From the NCBI RefSeq assembly GCF_006335015.1, contig NZ_VDGT01000018.1, positions 1 through 64,000 of the forward strand: a stretch of 64,000 nucleotides of DNA, read 5' to 3'. The stretch is from Streptomyces sedi. Its GTDB lineage: Bacteria > Actinomycetota > Actinomycetes > Streptomycetales > Streptomycetaceae. The translations under genes were made by a program, and so were the position numbers. Shown piece after piece: positions 55,125 through 59,005 of the stretch. The notes under the pieces were generated by a model, which was not told the origin of the DNA, ran no database searches, and saw only the letters and a program-made list of their open reading frames with translations. The stretch's first letter is position 1. Each line of letters opens with the position of its first letter.

Positions 55125-55162
55125 AACGCCGCGTCCCGCCCCCGGCGGGAGGACGCGGCGTT
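55125..55162 (+). terminator. Terminator of gabT
   Basis: AACGCCGCGTCC at 55125-55136 pairs with GGACGCGGCGTT at 55151-55162 (12 bp). The inner part CGCC/GGCG extends the stem past a small bulge. It starts 23 bases after the gabT stop, and isolates gabT from the AAA-PIN gene pair. Confidence 0.75.
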
Positions 55163-55196: not shown

Positions 55197-55208
55197 CGTC
55201 AGCTGACG
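55197..55208. promoter_or_regulatory. 12-bp perfect palindrome upstream of the AAA ATPase gene
   Basis: CGTCAGCTGACG lies about 80 bases before the ATPase start codon. It is a possible operator for the AAA-PIN pair. A TAGACT hexamer at 55176-55181 could be a -10 box, but the -35 region is poor. Confidence 0.3.
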
Positions 55209-55286
55209 GATGACGAACCGTCGTGAGGGCCCGGAAGCGGGCCGCCGTTCGGAGCCGGGCACGGAGCGAGAACGAGAGAGGTGCCC

Positions 55287-56627
55287 GTGGAGACTCCCCG
55301 GCTGGAGGAGGTGCGCCTGACCTCCTTCAAGAGCTTCACCGACCAGTGCCTGCCGCTGAACGACCTCACCGTGCTCGTCGGACGCAACGGCAGCGGCAAG
55401 TCCAACGCGCTGGACGGGCTGCTGGTCCTCTCCCGCCTGGCCCTCGGCGACCCGGTGCGCGACGCGCTGGACGGGCCGCGGAGCGAGGGCGACGAGCCGG
55501 TGCGGGGCGGCGCGGAGGGGTGCGCCCCGTGGGGCAGCGACGCGTTCCGGCTGGGCTGCCGGGTGCGTTCCGGCGACGAGATCTTCGACCTCGACGTGGA
55601 GATCGCCGTGCGGCCCGAGGTGCGGGTCCTCAGCGAGCGGCTGACGGCCGTCGAGGGCGTGCGCTACGGCGGTCGCCGCCTGACCGCCGGTCGTACGCTG
55701 CTCGCCAGCGCCCCGCCGGATCGCGGCAGCGGCGATCTCCAGGGGCGCTACTTCAACGGGCAGCGCGGGGCCGACCCGGGCGTCGCCTTCCCCGCCGATC
55801 GGCTGCTCACCGGCCAGGTGCCCGTGCGGCTCCCGGCGACCACGGAGGCGACCCGGCTGGTGCACCGCGCCGCGCAGCTCGTTCTCGACGTACTCCGCTC
55901 GGTCTTCCCGCTCGACCCGGTGCCCCATCTGATGAGGCGCTATGTCAACGCGCGCGACGCGGCGCTCCGCCGCAGCGCCGACAACCTGAGCGCGGCCGTC
56001 GACGCACTGCGCACCGACGATCCGGCCGCGTTCGACCGGCTCACCGCCCTGGTGGCGGGGATGCCCGAGTACCCCGTGCGCGGGATCAGCCGCGTGGGCA
56101 CCTCGCTGGGCGACGTGCAGCTGGTGCTGCGCGAGGCCGGGTACCACGGCCGGGAACACGAGGTGCCGGCGCGGCTTCTCAGCGACGGGATGCTGCGCTT
56201 CCTGGCCTTCGGCACGGCGCTGCTCACCGCGCCCGTCTCCGACGCCGGCCAGGCCGGGGCCTCCCCCCAACGCCACCTGGTGATCGAGGAGATCGAGAAC
56301 GGCCTCTACCCGACGCAGGCGGCGCGCGTGCTGGGCCTCATGAAGGAGGAGTCCGATCGGCGCGACGTCGACGTGCTCCTCACCACCCACAGTCCCGCGC
56401 TGCTCAACTCCCTGGACGCACAGGACCACGCCGGGGTCGTCGTCTGCGCCCGGGCCCCGGACTCCGGGGAGAGCGTGTTGCGGCGCCTGACCGAACTCCC
56501 CCGCTATGTGGAGCTGTTGGCGGCGGGCGACCTGGGCGACGCGATGTCCAGGGGACGCCTGTCCGAGGCGGTCAGCCCGCGTGACGCCGGCGTCACCAGC
56601 GTCGAGGACTTCCTGAGGAGTCTGTGA
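55287..56627 (+). CDS. OLD/RecF-like AAA ATPase, part of a candidate two-gene defence system
   Basis: A 446-residue ABC-like AAA (AAA_15/AAA_21 type) ATPase. EVRLTSFKSF leads to Walker A G32-RNGSGK-S39. The middle is helical (residues 200-270). A degenerate signature is ARLLSDGMLRFLAF (near 295), Walker B is HLVIEEIENGLYP (near 332), and the histidine is in VLLTTHSPALLNSL (near 366). The TOPRIM nuclease domain found in true OLD proteins is absent; the chain ends VEDFLRSL shortly after the ATPase. The GTG at 55287, after GAGAGAGG, is favoured over the GTG at 55281. Its stop overlaps the PIN gene by GTGA, so the nuclease part is probably supplied in trans. Confidence 0.87.
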   Translation: METPRLEEVRLTSFKSFTDQCLPLNDLTVLVGRNGSGKSNALDGLLVLSRLALGDPVRDALDGPRSEGDEPVRGGAEGCAPWGSDAFRLGCRVRSGDEIFDLDVEIAVRPEVRVLSERLTAVEGVRYGGRRLTAGRTLLASAPPDRGSGDLQGRYFNGQRGADPGVAFPADRLLTGQVPVRLPATTEATRLVHRAAQLVLDVLRSVFPLDPVPHLMRRYVNARDAALRRSADNLSAAVDALRTDDPAAFDRLTALVAGMPEYPVRGISRVGTSLGDVQLVLREAGYHGREHEVPARLLSDGMLRFLAFGTALLTAPVSDAGQAGASPQRHLVIEEIENGLYPTQAARVLGLMKEESDRRDVDVLLTTHSPALLNSLDAQDHAGVVVCARAPDSGESVLRRLTELPRYVELLAAGDLGDAMSRGRLSEAVSPRDAGVTSVEDFLRSL

Positions 56628-57136
56628 CCGTGAGCAGACAGCGCCAGCCCGCACTCCCCCTTCCGGTGGTCGAGTTCCTCGACACCTCGGTGCTCGTCGA
56701 GTTCCTGGACGTGCCCCACAGGAACGCGCGGCGCGCCGAGGTCCTCGCGGAGATGGACGCCCGGTTGAAGGCCGGCGTGCGGTTCGTTCTGCCGACGGCC
56801 ACGATCGTCGAGACGGGGAACCACGTCTTCCAGATCAAGGACGGCGCGGCCCGCAGGGACCGCGCCCTCCACCTCAGGTCGCTGCTGCTCAAGACCGCCC
56901 GGGGCGAGGCGCCGTGGGTACTGCACGAACGCACCTGGGACGGTGCCTTTCTCACCTCCCTGTGCCACGGCGGGACCACGGGCATGGATCTGGCGGAACA
57001 CGCCGTCCGCCAGCAGCTCGGCACCGGGGATCTGAGCATCGTCGCGGAGCGGGACCTGTACGCGTCACGGGCACGGGCCGACGTCCGCATCTGGACGTTG
57101 GAGGCGACCATGGGGACGTGGGCCAGGCTGACCTGA
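56624..57136 (+). CDS. PIN-domain nuclease coupled to the AAA ATPase
   Basis: A 170-residue protein with the PIN-fold acidic signature. VVEFLDTSVLVEFLD gives D20, TATIVETGNH gives E63, and GTGDLSIVAERDLY gives D136 and D144. VRIWTLEATM is a final strand-helix. PIN proteins are metal-dependent ribonucleases or flap nucleases, often toxins. The GTG start overlaps the ATPase stop by 4 bases, so the two products should be made together in a fixed ratio. No VapB-like antitoxin gene is adjacent, so a plain VapBC module is unlikely. The target RNA or DNA is unknown. Confidence 0.82.
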   Translation: MTVSRQRQPALPLPVVEFLDTSVLVEFLDVPHRNARRAEVLAEMDARLKAGVRFVLPTATIVETGNHVFQIKDGAARRDRALHLRSLLLKTARGEAPWVLHERTWDGAFLTSLCHGGTTGMDLAEHAVRQQLGTGDLSIVAERDLYASRARADVRIWTLEATMGTWARLT

Positions 57137-57158
57137 GCGGTTCCCCGCGCGGCGCGGC

Positions 57159-57680
57159 TCAGTGGGCGGGGCCGCGGGTGCCGGGCGGGGGATGCTCGGG
57201 GGCGCGGTCGTGGGTCGGGTCGGGGTCGCCGGGGGCGGGGGTCGCGACGAGGGCGGCGGCCTCGTGCATGGCCAGTTCCAGGACGGCGGGGTCGTTGAGC
57301 ATCCCGGAGCCGTCCGGGCGGACCAGCCAGTGGGCGGCGGGGACGGAGCGTTCCGGGTGCGGCACCACGATCCAGCTGCCGGAGCCCGCCGCCCGCACCC
57401 CGGTGCCGAGCCAGCGGGCGGCGGTGCCGGGCGGCACGAAGAAGCCGACGCGGCGCCGTTCCTGGTCGGCGAGGACCGGCCCCGGTCGGCCGGTGACGTG
57501 GACCAGCACGTCCAACGTGGTCATCCCCAGCCCGCCCGGCAGGATCAGCACGTCCCACCGCCGCCCGGCGGGGAGCAGCGCCACGCCCTGTTGGCTGTGC
57601 TCCCACTCCCACCGGCAGATCGCCGGCCTCGGTGCCGCCAGTGCCAGCCACTCCAGTGCCGACCGTGCCTCGCCGCTCAT
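57159..57680 (-). CDS. Small protein resembling actinobacterial primase/polymerase-like proteins
   Basis: A 173-residue protein. RRWDVLILPGGLGMTTLDVLVH, GPVLADQERRRVGFFVPPGTAARW and GSWIVVPHP are patterns I know from Streptomyces proteins annotated as bifunctional DNA primase/polymerase-like. The catalytic acidic pair of active prim-pol enzymes is not evident, so it is probably not a polymerase. The C terminus is Pro/Asp-rich. It converges on the PIN gene with 22 bases between stops. Function is unknown. Confidence 0.65.
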   Translation of the reverse strand: MSGEARSALEWLALAAPRPAICRWEWEHSQQGVALLPAGRRWDVLILPGGLGMTTLDVLVHVTGRPGPVLADQERRRVGFFVPPGTAARWLGTGVRAAGSGSWIVVPHPERSVPAAHWLVRPDGSGMLNDPAVLELAMHEAAALVATPAPGDPDPTHDRAPEHPPPGTRGPAH

Positions 57681-57843
57681 CCCGCGTCCCTTCTGCCGCC
57701 GGCCCCGGCGTCCGTCGGGGCCCTCTCGTTCCTTGGCGGTGAGAGGGGGAAACGGCGCGATCCTTACGCGACTTCGGCGAACTCGGGCGGGCGTCGGGCG
57801 TAACCTCCGTCACTTCGCGGGCGGACGGGGCGGCGGGAAGCGG

Positions 57844-58887
57844 TCAGACGTCCAGGCTCTCGCCCGGCGGCCCGTCCTCGGTGTCGGGACCGGTGTCGGG
57901 ATCGGTCGGCTCGCGGTCGAACCCGCCGCTCCGGTCGATGTGCCAGAAGGCCCAGTCGTAGTCGTCGTCGGGCCGGTAGTCGACGGCGATTCCGCCCGTT
58001 TCCGTCCCGAGCGTCACGAGGTAGACCACCTCAACCGACTGGCCGGAGCGCACCGAGTCCGGCCCGTCGCCGGCGCGGTGGACGTCGCCCAGCCGCATGC
58101 CCTCCCCGGTGAACGCCCGCAGCGCGTCGCCGGTGAGGGATATGTCGCCGTCGGACTCGTTGATCAGCGTGACGGTCACCTGCCCCCGGAGCCCGTCGCC
58201 ACCGAGCGGCGCGAGGCGGACGACCAGCCCGTCGGCGTAGACCACCTCGTCGCCCGGCACGGCGAGATAGTCCGAGCCGACGCGGCTCTCCACCTCGACG
58301 TAGCGGGACAGTTCGATCACCAGCAGCACGGAGAGCACGGCAGCCACCACCGCGGCTCCCGAGCCGATCCACATGCCGCCGAGCGCCACCCGCCGGTTGG
58401 TGGCCGCGCCGCGCTTGGCGCGGCCGGAGCCGACCAGCCCGCAGCCGACCGCGAGCAGCCCGAGCAGCAGACCGAGGGGGCTGAGGTAGAAGGTCCAGCA
58501 CAGCGCGGCGGCGCCCACGCCGAGCGCCAGCGCGAAGGCGCCCGTGGCGTTCCGCGGCCCGCGGGGCGGAGCCGGGGGCCAGGGCGCGAAACCCTGCTGG
58601 GGAAAGCCCGGTTGGGCGAAGCCGGGCGGGGCGAAGCCGGGCTGGGTGTAGCCGGGCGGGCCCGGCGGCTGCTGGGGGAACGCTCCGGTGACCGGCGGTC
58701 CGGGGAACGGGGGCCCGGCGAACGGCGCGGCGGGAACGGGCGGCGGCGGGCCCTGCGGGGGCGGAGGCGGCAGCGAGCCCGGCGGCGGGGTGCCCCGGCC
58801 GCCGGCCGGCAGCGACGGCGGCGGCGGGGTCCTGGGCGCCTCATCGGCCTTCGGCCGGCTCGGATCGGGCTGCTGGTCAGCGGTCAC
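57844..58887 (-). CDS. Pro/Gly-rich membrane protein with DUF4190 and DUF4352-like domains
   Basis: A 347-residue protein. The first 130 residues are Pro/Gly-rich with GFAQPGFPQQGFAP-type repeats. The DUF4190 double helix follows (ATGAFALALGVGAAALCWTFYLSPLGLLLGLLAVGCG), then a third helix (AAVVAAVLSVLLVIELSRYV). An extracellular beta domain of the DUF4352 kind comes last (GDEVVYADGLVVRLAPL, VTVTLINESDGDISLTGDALRAF) with an acidic tail. It is probably an envelope protein of unknown role. The GTG at 58887 follows GTGGAGG. It is divergent from the deaminase gene. Confidence 0.8.
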   Translation of the reverse strand: MTADQQPDPSRPKADEAPRTPPPPSLPAGGRGTPPPGSLPPPPPQGPPPPVPAAPFAGPPFPGPPVTGAFPQQPPGPPGYTQPGFAPPGFAQPGFPQQGFAPWPPAPPRGPRNATGAFALALGVGAAALCWTFYLSPLGLLLGLLAVGCGLVGSGRAKRGAATNRRVALGGMWIGSGAAVVAAVLSVLLVIELSRYVEVESRVGSDYLAVPGDEVVYADGLVVRLAPLGGDGLRGQVTVTLINESDGDISLTGDALRAFTGEGMRLGDVHRAGDGPDSVRSGQSVEVVYLVTLGTETGGIAVDYRPDDDYDWAFWHIDRSGGFDREPTDPDTGPDTEDGPPGESLDV

Positions 58888-59005
58888 GGCACCTCCACGT
58901 TCGCCTGCGCCCAGCCTACGGCCAGCCGGGGGCCATCGTCCCCGCCCCGCCCCCGGACCGGTCCCGGCCTACGATGTGATCACGTCCGTCTCCCAGGAGG
59001 GTGTT

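Follow-up and report, generated by a model that had tools for sequence, protein, structure and literature searches.

The window, a 64,000-nt stretch of the 6.6-Mb genome of Streptomyces sedi, carries two same-strand genes downstream of gabT that encode an ABC/OLD-type ATPase and a small PIN-domain protein (Table 1). Both open reading frames (ORFs) were confirmed at the place given in a sequence-only reading of this DNA, and an ORF on the opposite strand ends at 57159. The ATPase ORF also has a longer form with an alternative start at GTG 55281. Nine of the 10 streptomycete relatives with the ATPase 5′ end on the contig begin at the codon matching GTG 55287 and lack a start where the window has GTG 55281, whereas the tenth, S. 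zhaozhouensis, contains both starts, as in the window; GTG 55287, the start chosen in the earlier reading, is therefore the better one. The same reading had the PIN gene coupled to the ATPase gene through a GTGA overlap. That overlap is present in the window (GTG 56624), but only three of 11 streptomycete relatives use it, the other eight starting the PIN gene 4 nt past the ATPase stop. From this comparison, GTG 56630 is the likely PIN start in the window and GTG 56624 an alternative.

The interval upstream of the pair had been taken to contain the gabT terminator, an assignment that we do not retain: its GC-rich hairpin, equalled in folding by 4 of 200 shuffles of the 86-nt stretch, lacks a T-run, and a terminator scan gave no terminator-like site between gabT and the ATPase gene. 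The description of a small cassette placed between other genes holds, as the pair is solitary in the window. Between 48 and 63 kb of the window, PADLOC-DB profiles detected no further defence genes among ten ORFs, where the only matches were ABC-transporter-type ATPases and an adenosine deaminase that cross-match via shared domains. The names of the neighbours (gabT, ABC transporter, adenosine deaminase) were assigned by eye. No DrmA match was found anywhere in the window's genome, and a search of that genome for N6-methylases identified four places, none of them on the window's contig.

Table 1. Coordinates of the gene pair, its motifs and candidate metal ligands, and the upstream hairpin in the window. 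ATPase residues are counted from GTG 55281 and PIN residues from GTG 56624. Motif counts refer to 26 aligned pairs including the window (ATPase) or 27 aligned sequences (PIN).
Feature	Position	Strand	Basis
GC-rich hairpin, gabT–ATPase gene interval, no T-run	55125..55162	+	shuffle test, terminator scan
ABC/OLD-type ATPase gene (AAA_21; PDC-M07A)	55287..56627	+	446 aa; PADLOC-DB profile match
Walker A GRNGSGKS, residues 34–41	55380..55403	+	G34, N36, G39 and K40 in 26/26
ABC-signature-like SDG, residues 301–303	56181..56189	+	26/26
Walker B LVIEE with E337	56277..56291	+	E337 in 26/26
His switch TTH, H370	56382..56390	+	H370 in 26/26
Predicted PIN-domain nuclease gene (PDC-M07B)	56630..57136	+	168 aa from likely start GTG 56630; profile match and VapC-type fold
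PIN acid D20	56681..56683	+	26/27
PIN acid E63, invariant ETGNH motif	56810..56812	+	27/27
PIN acid D136, GD motif	57029..57031	+	27/27
PIN acid E160 (Asp in distant relatives)	57101..57103	+	D or E in 27/27

The ATPase is of the ABC/SMC type, with Walker A, signature, Walker B and His motifs all present. Among 13 motif positions checked across the 26 pairs, 10 were invariant and S41, E336 and N340 showed one conservative change each. Pfam matches comprised AAA_21 (E = 6.8e-30) and AAA_15 (E = 5e-12) and included no TOPRIM family; the C-terminus extends 78 residues beyond H370. Alignment and Pfam matches agree with the initial description of an ATPase with full Walker A, Walker B and histidine motifs and no TOPRIM domain. 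Against solved structures, a profile of 24 relatives matched the Septu/retron protein PtuA best (8ee4, E = 2.2e-12), over profile positions 234–359 only, a C-terminal stretch, with SMC proteins close behind. The profile retained the ATPase of a Brasilonema plasmid (L113); L057, the gene of which is truncated by a contig end, was left out of the ATPase set. The single ATPase sequence gave weak matches, with an SMC protein on top. Identity as an AbiEii toxin was considered and rejected, the word being merely part of the Pfam name of AAA_21.

The second protein is, by its predicted fold, a VapC-like PIN nuclease with three to four conserved acids. Its AlphaFold model from 15 relatives reached a pLDDT of 90.1 and a pTM of 0.83; a model from 12 close relatives alone had a pLDDT of 41, which rose to 90 once three viral-contig relatives were added. 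VapC toxins were the highest-scoring structure matches (best Foldseek E = 9.9e-4; matches within 1 Z count as tied). The best solved match was VapC20, a cutter of the sarcin-ricin loop (Z 13.1 over 127 residues, 2.4 Å), and RNA-decay PIN proteins such as SMG6 scored lower. The matches also included a Cas9 partner and the cyclodehydratase RohQ (Z 10.0), so having a PIN-like fold is no proof that the protein cleaves RNA; flap endonucleases did not appear among the 50 structure matches listed, which excludes nothing. The Pfam PIN match of the single window sequence was sub-threshold (E = 0.0017, 19.4 bits against a cut-off of 23.6), and PF01850 gave no match at this gene in a whole-genome search. 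Across 27 PIN relatives, the only Pfam families with more than one match were PIN (10), PIN_12 (5) and PIN_4 (2). Comparison with the sequences of solved structures, using the protein alone or as a profile, returned nothing relevant, and PHROGs gave no match.

Four candidate acidic ligands had been picked out from the window sequence; the active-site acids D20, E63, D136 and D/E160 follow the order typical of PIN domains, and each is conserved in 26 or 27 of the 27 aligned sequences. The PIN protein of Anabaena cylindrica pANACY.01 (L111:10352-10834) has Tyr instead of D20, a substitution that suggests lost activity or a changed role in that copy. The small protein of the Brasilonema plasmid was part of the first PIN alignment and was later removed as non-PIN.

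The sequence-only reading had presented the pair as a candidate undescribed defence or toxin system; that it is undescribed we reject: PADLOC-DB (2023) already holds profiles of both proteins, and the pair closely matches this named ATPase–PIN system. In version 2.0.0, the ATPase is PDC-M07A (PDLC04389, E = 1.6e-177, 588.9 bits, residues 4–446 of the longer ORF against profile positions 2–441 of 443) and the PIN protein PDC-M07B (PDLC04394, E = 1.6e-49). Six PADLOC families match the PIN protein, all of them PDC-M07B, with a best score of 166.2 bits. Judged by these matches, the window pair belongs to the phage-defence candidate PDC-M07, catalogued by name, and is an additional member in which no difference was found. 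One paper attributes the PDC systems to Payne et al. and calls them candidates that are unpublished (PMC11811056); another describes them as found through guilt-by-embedding and for the most part not yet validated (PMC12988326). Such candidates can fail, as PDC-M63 and PDC-S04 gave no defence when tested in one study (PMC12409345). The name PDC-M07 was absent from the open-access literature searched, in which we recognised no functional work on PDC-M07 or on an ABC ATPase with a PIN protein. Any earlier description would most likely be in Krishnan et al. 2020 or in the 2024 preprint by Payne et al., both outside the literature searched.

Conserved adjacency far outside the strain was found in at least five phyla (Actinomycetota, Cyanobacteriota, Pseudomonadota, Bacillota and Bacteroidota). 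All 13 named close relatives of the PIN protein come from Streptomyces. Within 150 Streptomyces genomes (own included), the ATPase query matched 131, strongly (E < 1e-70) in seven, and the PIN query matched nine. Seven intact adjacent pairs occurred in six of these genomes, one of which (G028) has two different ones. Three further genomes (G025, G088 and G138) contain broken or partial copies, some possibly due to assembly error, and G044 contains a lone, short and weak PIN match. The remaining ATPase-matching genomes encode weaker relatives (best E = 1.9e-36) and, save those named, have no PIN match. One PDC-M07B profile matched three of 396 genomes of the phylum, own included; one of the three lies outside the genus, and its copy is interrupted by a stop. 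A PIN match occurred on 13 genome contigs. The 11 near-complete loci among them have the ATPase gene directly upstream, and the other two (L060 and L061) hold PIN fragments only, without an ATPase match.

Mobile elements also carry the pair. Seventeen plasmid records match the ATPase, 11 of them over at least 80% of its length, and a PIN gene adjoins it in 10 of these 11. The ATPase also matched 45 viral contigs; of the best four, which were inspected, three contain the intact pair, with one copy beside a terminase gpA gene and one beside a P22_AR-type gene. A first-pass PIN-pattern scan of the viral contigs confirmed none; the ATPase had no match in phage records, and a DNA search with the Photobacterium pair had none in E. 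coli genomes. For 26 pairs, the distance matrices of the ATPase and the PIN protein correlated with r 0.971, a value reached in none of 10,000 permutations and one to which shared ancestry partly contributes.

Other ATPase partners came into view during these searches. Weaker ATPase relatives, about 30–40% identical, occur in most of the 150 Streptomyces genomes (loci L017:1019-2673, L020:1034-2610, L024:1040-2529 and L027:1474-2996). A small gene follows the ATPase gene with a 4-nt overlap in four of nine such loci inspected and is MazG-like in both loci checked (L017 and L027), perhaps representing a conserved ATPase–MazG pair. The eleventh plasmid record, from Brasilonema (L113:5998-7826), and a viral contig (L117:4875-6703) encode ATPases that are 25–26% related; the small protein after each differs from the PIN protein, has no Pfam match and is possibly an alternative effector.

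The pair was absent from the stretch around gabT (12.5–14.5 kb each) in all 13 other genomes chosen from those with this gene; in seven of the 13, gabT is retained together with a homologue of the gene that lies downstream of the window copy. Relative to S. zhaozhouensis, Ka/Ks was 0.13 for the ATPase and 0.11 for the PIN protein, which argues that the two are more than chance ORFs. Ks was 0.33 (ATPase) and 0.52 (PIN), compared with 0.10 to 0.24 in seven flanking genes, a range that leaves out ORFs 50638 and 60801 (Ka > Ks, probably wrong frame) and ORF 62254 (nearly equal values, 0.197 and 0.225). In 200-bp bins, identity to S. zhaozhouensis was 0.82–0.92 over 55200–57200, then 0.93–0.96, and dropped again to 0.76–0.91 over 57800–59000, so the cassette is not the sole variable stretch. 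Given Ka/Ks near 0.12 and the raised Ks, exchange of a diverged allele at the cassette is plausible.

Location in defence loci applies to copies elsewhere, at DISARM or type I restriction genes, and not to the window copy, which has no defence neighbours among the ten ORFs searched. We examined 16 streptomycete copies (the window, L048–L059 and L105–L107). Two lie at the gabT site (the window and L049 of S. zhaozhouensis) and seven upstream of the ribosomal protein genes of the S10 operon (L050 and L052–L057). L059 lies downstream of an EF-Tu gene, probably in the same interval as the pre-S10-operon copies, and L048 is on a 3.2-kb contig. The tuf–rpsJ interval before the S10 operon is a recurrent site (8/16 copies, neighbours partly scanned) and is also occupied by other variable genes, for example one encoding an RHS-repeat protein in L050.

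DISARM genes accompany the pair in four of the 16 copies and flank it on both sides in three: L105 has drmMI upstream and drmA and drmB downstream, L106 has drmD and drmMI upstream and drmA downstream, and L051 has drmB-drmA on one side and drmMI-drmD on the other. The fourth, L058, has drmB-drmA on one side, with a single gene scanned on the other. Within the 150-genome sample, DrmA was found within 10 kb of two of the seven intact pairs (G015 and G122). A rough, post hoc estimate from 22 strong DrmA matches, 8.5-Mb genomes and random placement puts the chance of such proximity at about 2.5e-6; assuming 100 DrmA-like loci raises it to 5e-5. A gene near the pair in L107 and L058 matches the PADLOC Orf5, HEC-06 and type IV restriction profiles. 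A PDC-M02B-type candidate gene (~396 aa) lies upstream of the pair at L051:7364-8557, L058:7368-8558 and L107:11329-12519. On the plasmids pAQU1 of Photobacterium damselae (HsdM and HsdR Pfam-checked) and pIFL1_3 of Vibrio campbellii, the pair is embedded in a type I restriction operon in the order hsdM-hsdS-ATPase-PIN-hsdR; a Lactococcus plasmid has an hsdS gene elsewhere.

Phage defence is very probably the role of the pair, given its copies at DISARM genes and in type I restriction operons, its presence on viral contigs and its broken copies. Starting from the protein types, the conserved catalytic residues, the tight co-inheritance and the residence in defence loci, we consider it reasonably likely that the whole works as follows. 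The ATPase, of the PtuA/AriA-like ABC type without a nuclease domain, would act as the sensor and hold or load the PIN protein in a complex that depends on ATP. Infection by a phage would alter this complex and switch on the PIN protein, a putative VapC-like metal-dependent ribonuclease that would cleave tRNA or another translation RNA, thereby halting phage production and the growth of the infected cell (abortive infection). We infer complex formation, trigger, RNA substrate and abortive infection by analogy with PARIS AriA-AriB, retron-Eco7 PtuAB and tRNA-cutting VapC-type PIN ribonucleases. In PARIS, the ABC ATPase AriA is described as holding AriB until a phage trigger frees it to cut tRNA-Lys, and VapC-type PIN ribonucleases as cleaving tRNA (PMC12409363). 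Septu is reported to cleave tRNA-Tyr (PMC13096335), and retron-Eco7 PtuAB to deplete tRNA-Tyr and to be toxic only as both proteins together (PMC11555353). A PIN ribonuclease is also described as required for defence in the DefensePredictor systems DS-3 and DS-5 (PMC13092281). We count the solitary window copy, the L060 and L061 fragments, the loss of D20 and the sub-threshold Pfam PIN match against the model.

Other functions were weighed against the same observations. The PIN superfamily includes DNA nucleases too, and a defence pair whose PIN effector cleaves DNA (phage or nicked) would fit the profile search with the ATPase, in which PtuA ranked first among solved structures. One Septu PtuAB is reported to cut DNA (PMC11555353); the structure matches, headed by VapC toxins including VapC20 with SMG6-like RNA-decay PIN proteins lower, argue against such an effector here, and we regard it as unlikely. 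A VapC-like fold, a second gene encoding a toxin-sized nuclease and 10 plasmid records with the pair would also suit a plain toxin–antitoxin addiction module, in which the ATPase serves as antitoxin to the PIN toxin for stable maintenance. However, instead of a small VapB the PIN protein is paired with an ABC ATPase of 446 aa whose catalytic motifs are conserved, and copies are nested at DISARM loci and within type I restriction operons, which leaves a mere addiction function quite unlikely.

Such nesting could instead mean that the pair is an accessory of host restriction or DISARM, acting as their regulator or as a reserve triggered when they are inhibited, and not an autonomous defence. We consider this very unlikely, as no such neighbour is in view at the gabT site, in the pre-S10 interval, on two small plasmids or on the viral contigs. 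Certain OLD-family ATPases, such as archaeal Cran1, are apparently non-defensive according to one account (PMC12796447), and a housekeeping pair for RNA processing or the cell cycle, unrelated to phages, would follow that precedent. The patchy distribution (intact pairs in six and broken or partial copies in three others of the 150 Streptomyces genomes), the varied genomic sites and the occurrence on plasmids and viral contigs make a housekeeping role very improbable.

Within the favoured reading of an infection-sensing ATPase that controls a PIN ribonuclease, we tentatively suggest that PDC-M07 may be, next to PARIS and Septu, a third build of an ABC-ATPase sensor that unleashes a tRNase, here via a VapC-type PIN protein, with the ATPase replacing the antitoxin and giving responsiveness to infection. 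If so, one ABC ATPase chassis would have been fitted with HNH, TOPRIM and PIN effectors, all ending in RNA cleavage; tRNA attack would be a general output of the class, and phages carrying tRNAs would be predicted to escape. Small plasmid-borne PDC-M07 members suit direct cloning, and the question can be tested now.

Among known systems, DS-3 is a single protein and DS-5 combines a PIN protein with a DUF5830/AcrIF4-like protein, both unlike the two-gene window pair, and the passages describing them mention no ABC ATPase with either (PMC13092281). Gabija GajA and other OLD proteins share the OLD-like ATPase domain, whereas the window ATPase has no TOPRIM match and no helicase gene beside it. 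VapBC resembles the pair in the VapC-type PIN fold and acids but has a VapB antitoxin upstream, where the window has an ABC ATPase. Septu and retron-Eco7 PtuA-PtuB likewise have a separate nuclease, and among solved structures PtuA scored best against the ATPase profile; PtuB is an HNH protein rather than a PIN protein, and in sequence the ATPases resemble each other only remotely. In PARIS (AriA-AriB), AriB is a TOPRIM effector, unlike the window's PIN protein, for which no AriB match was reported, yet the architecture is the same, with two genes encoding an ABC ATPase without its own nuclease and a small separate nuclease, and a PADLOC AriA profile matches the window ATPase with E = 7.1e-31.
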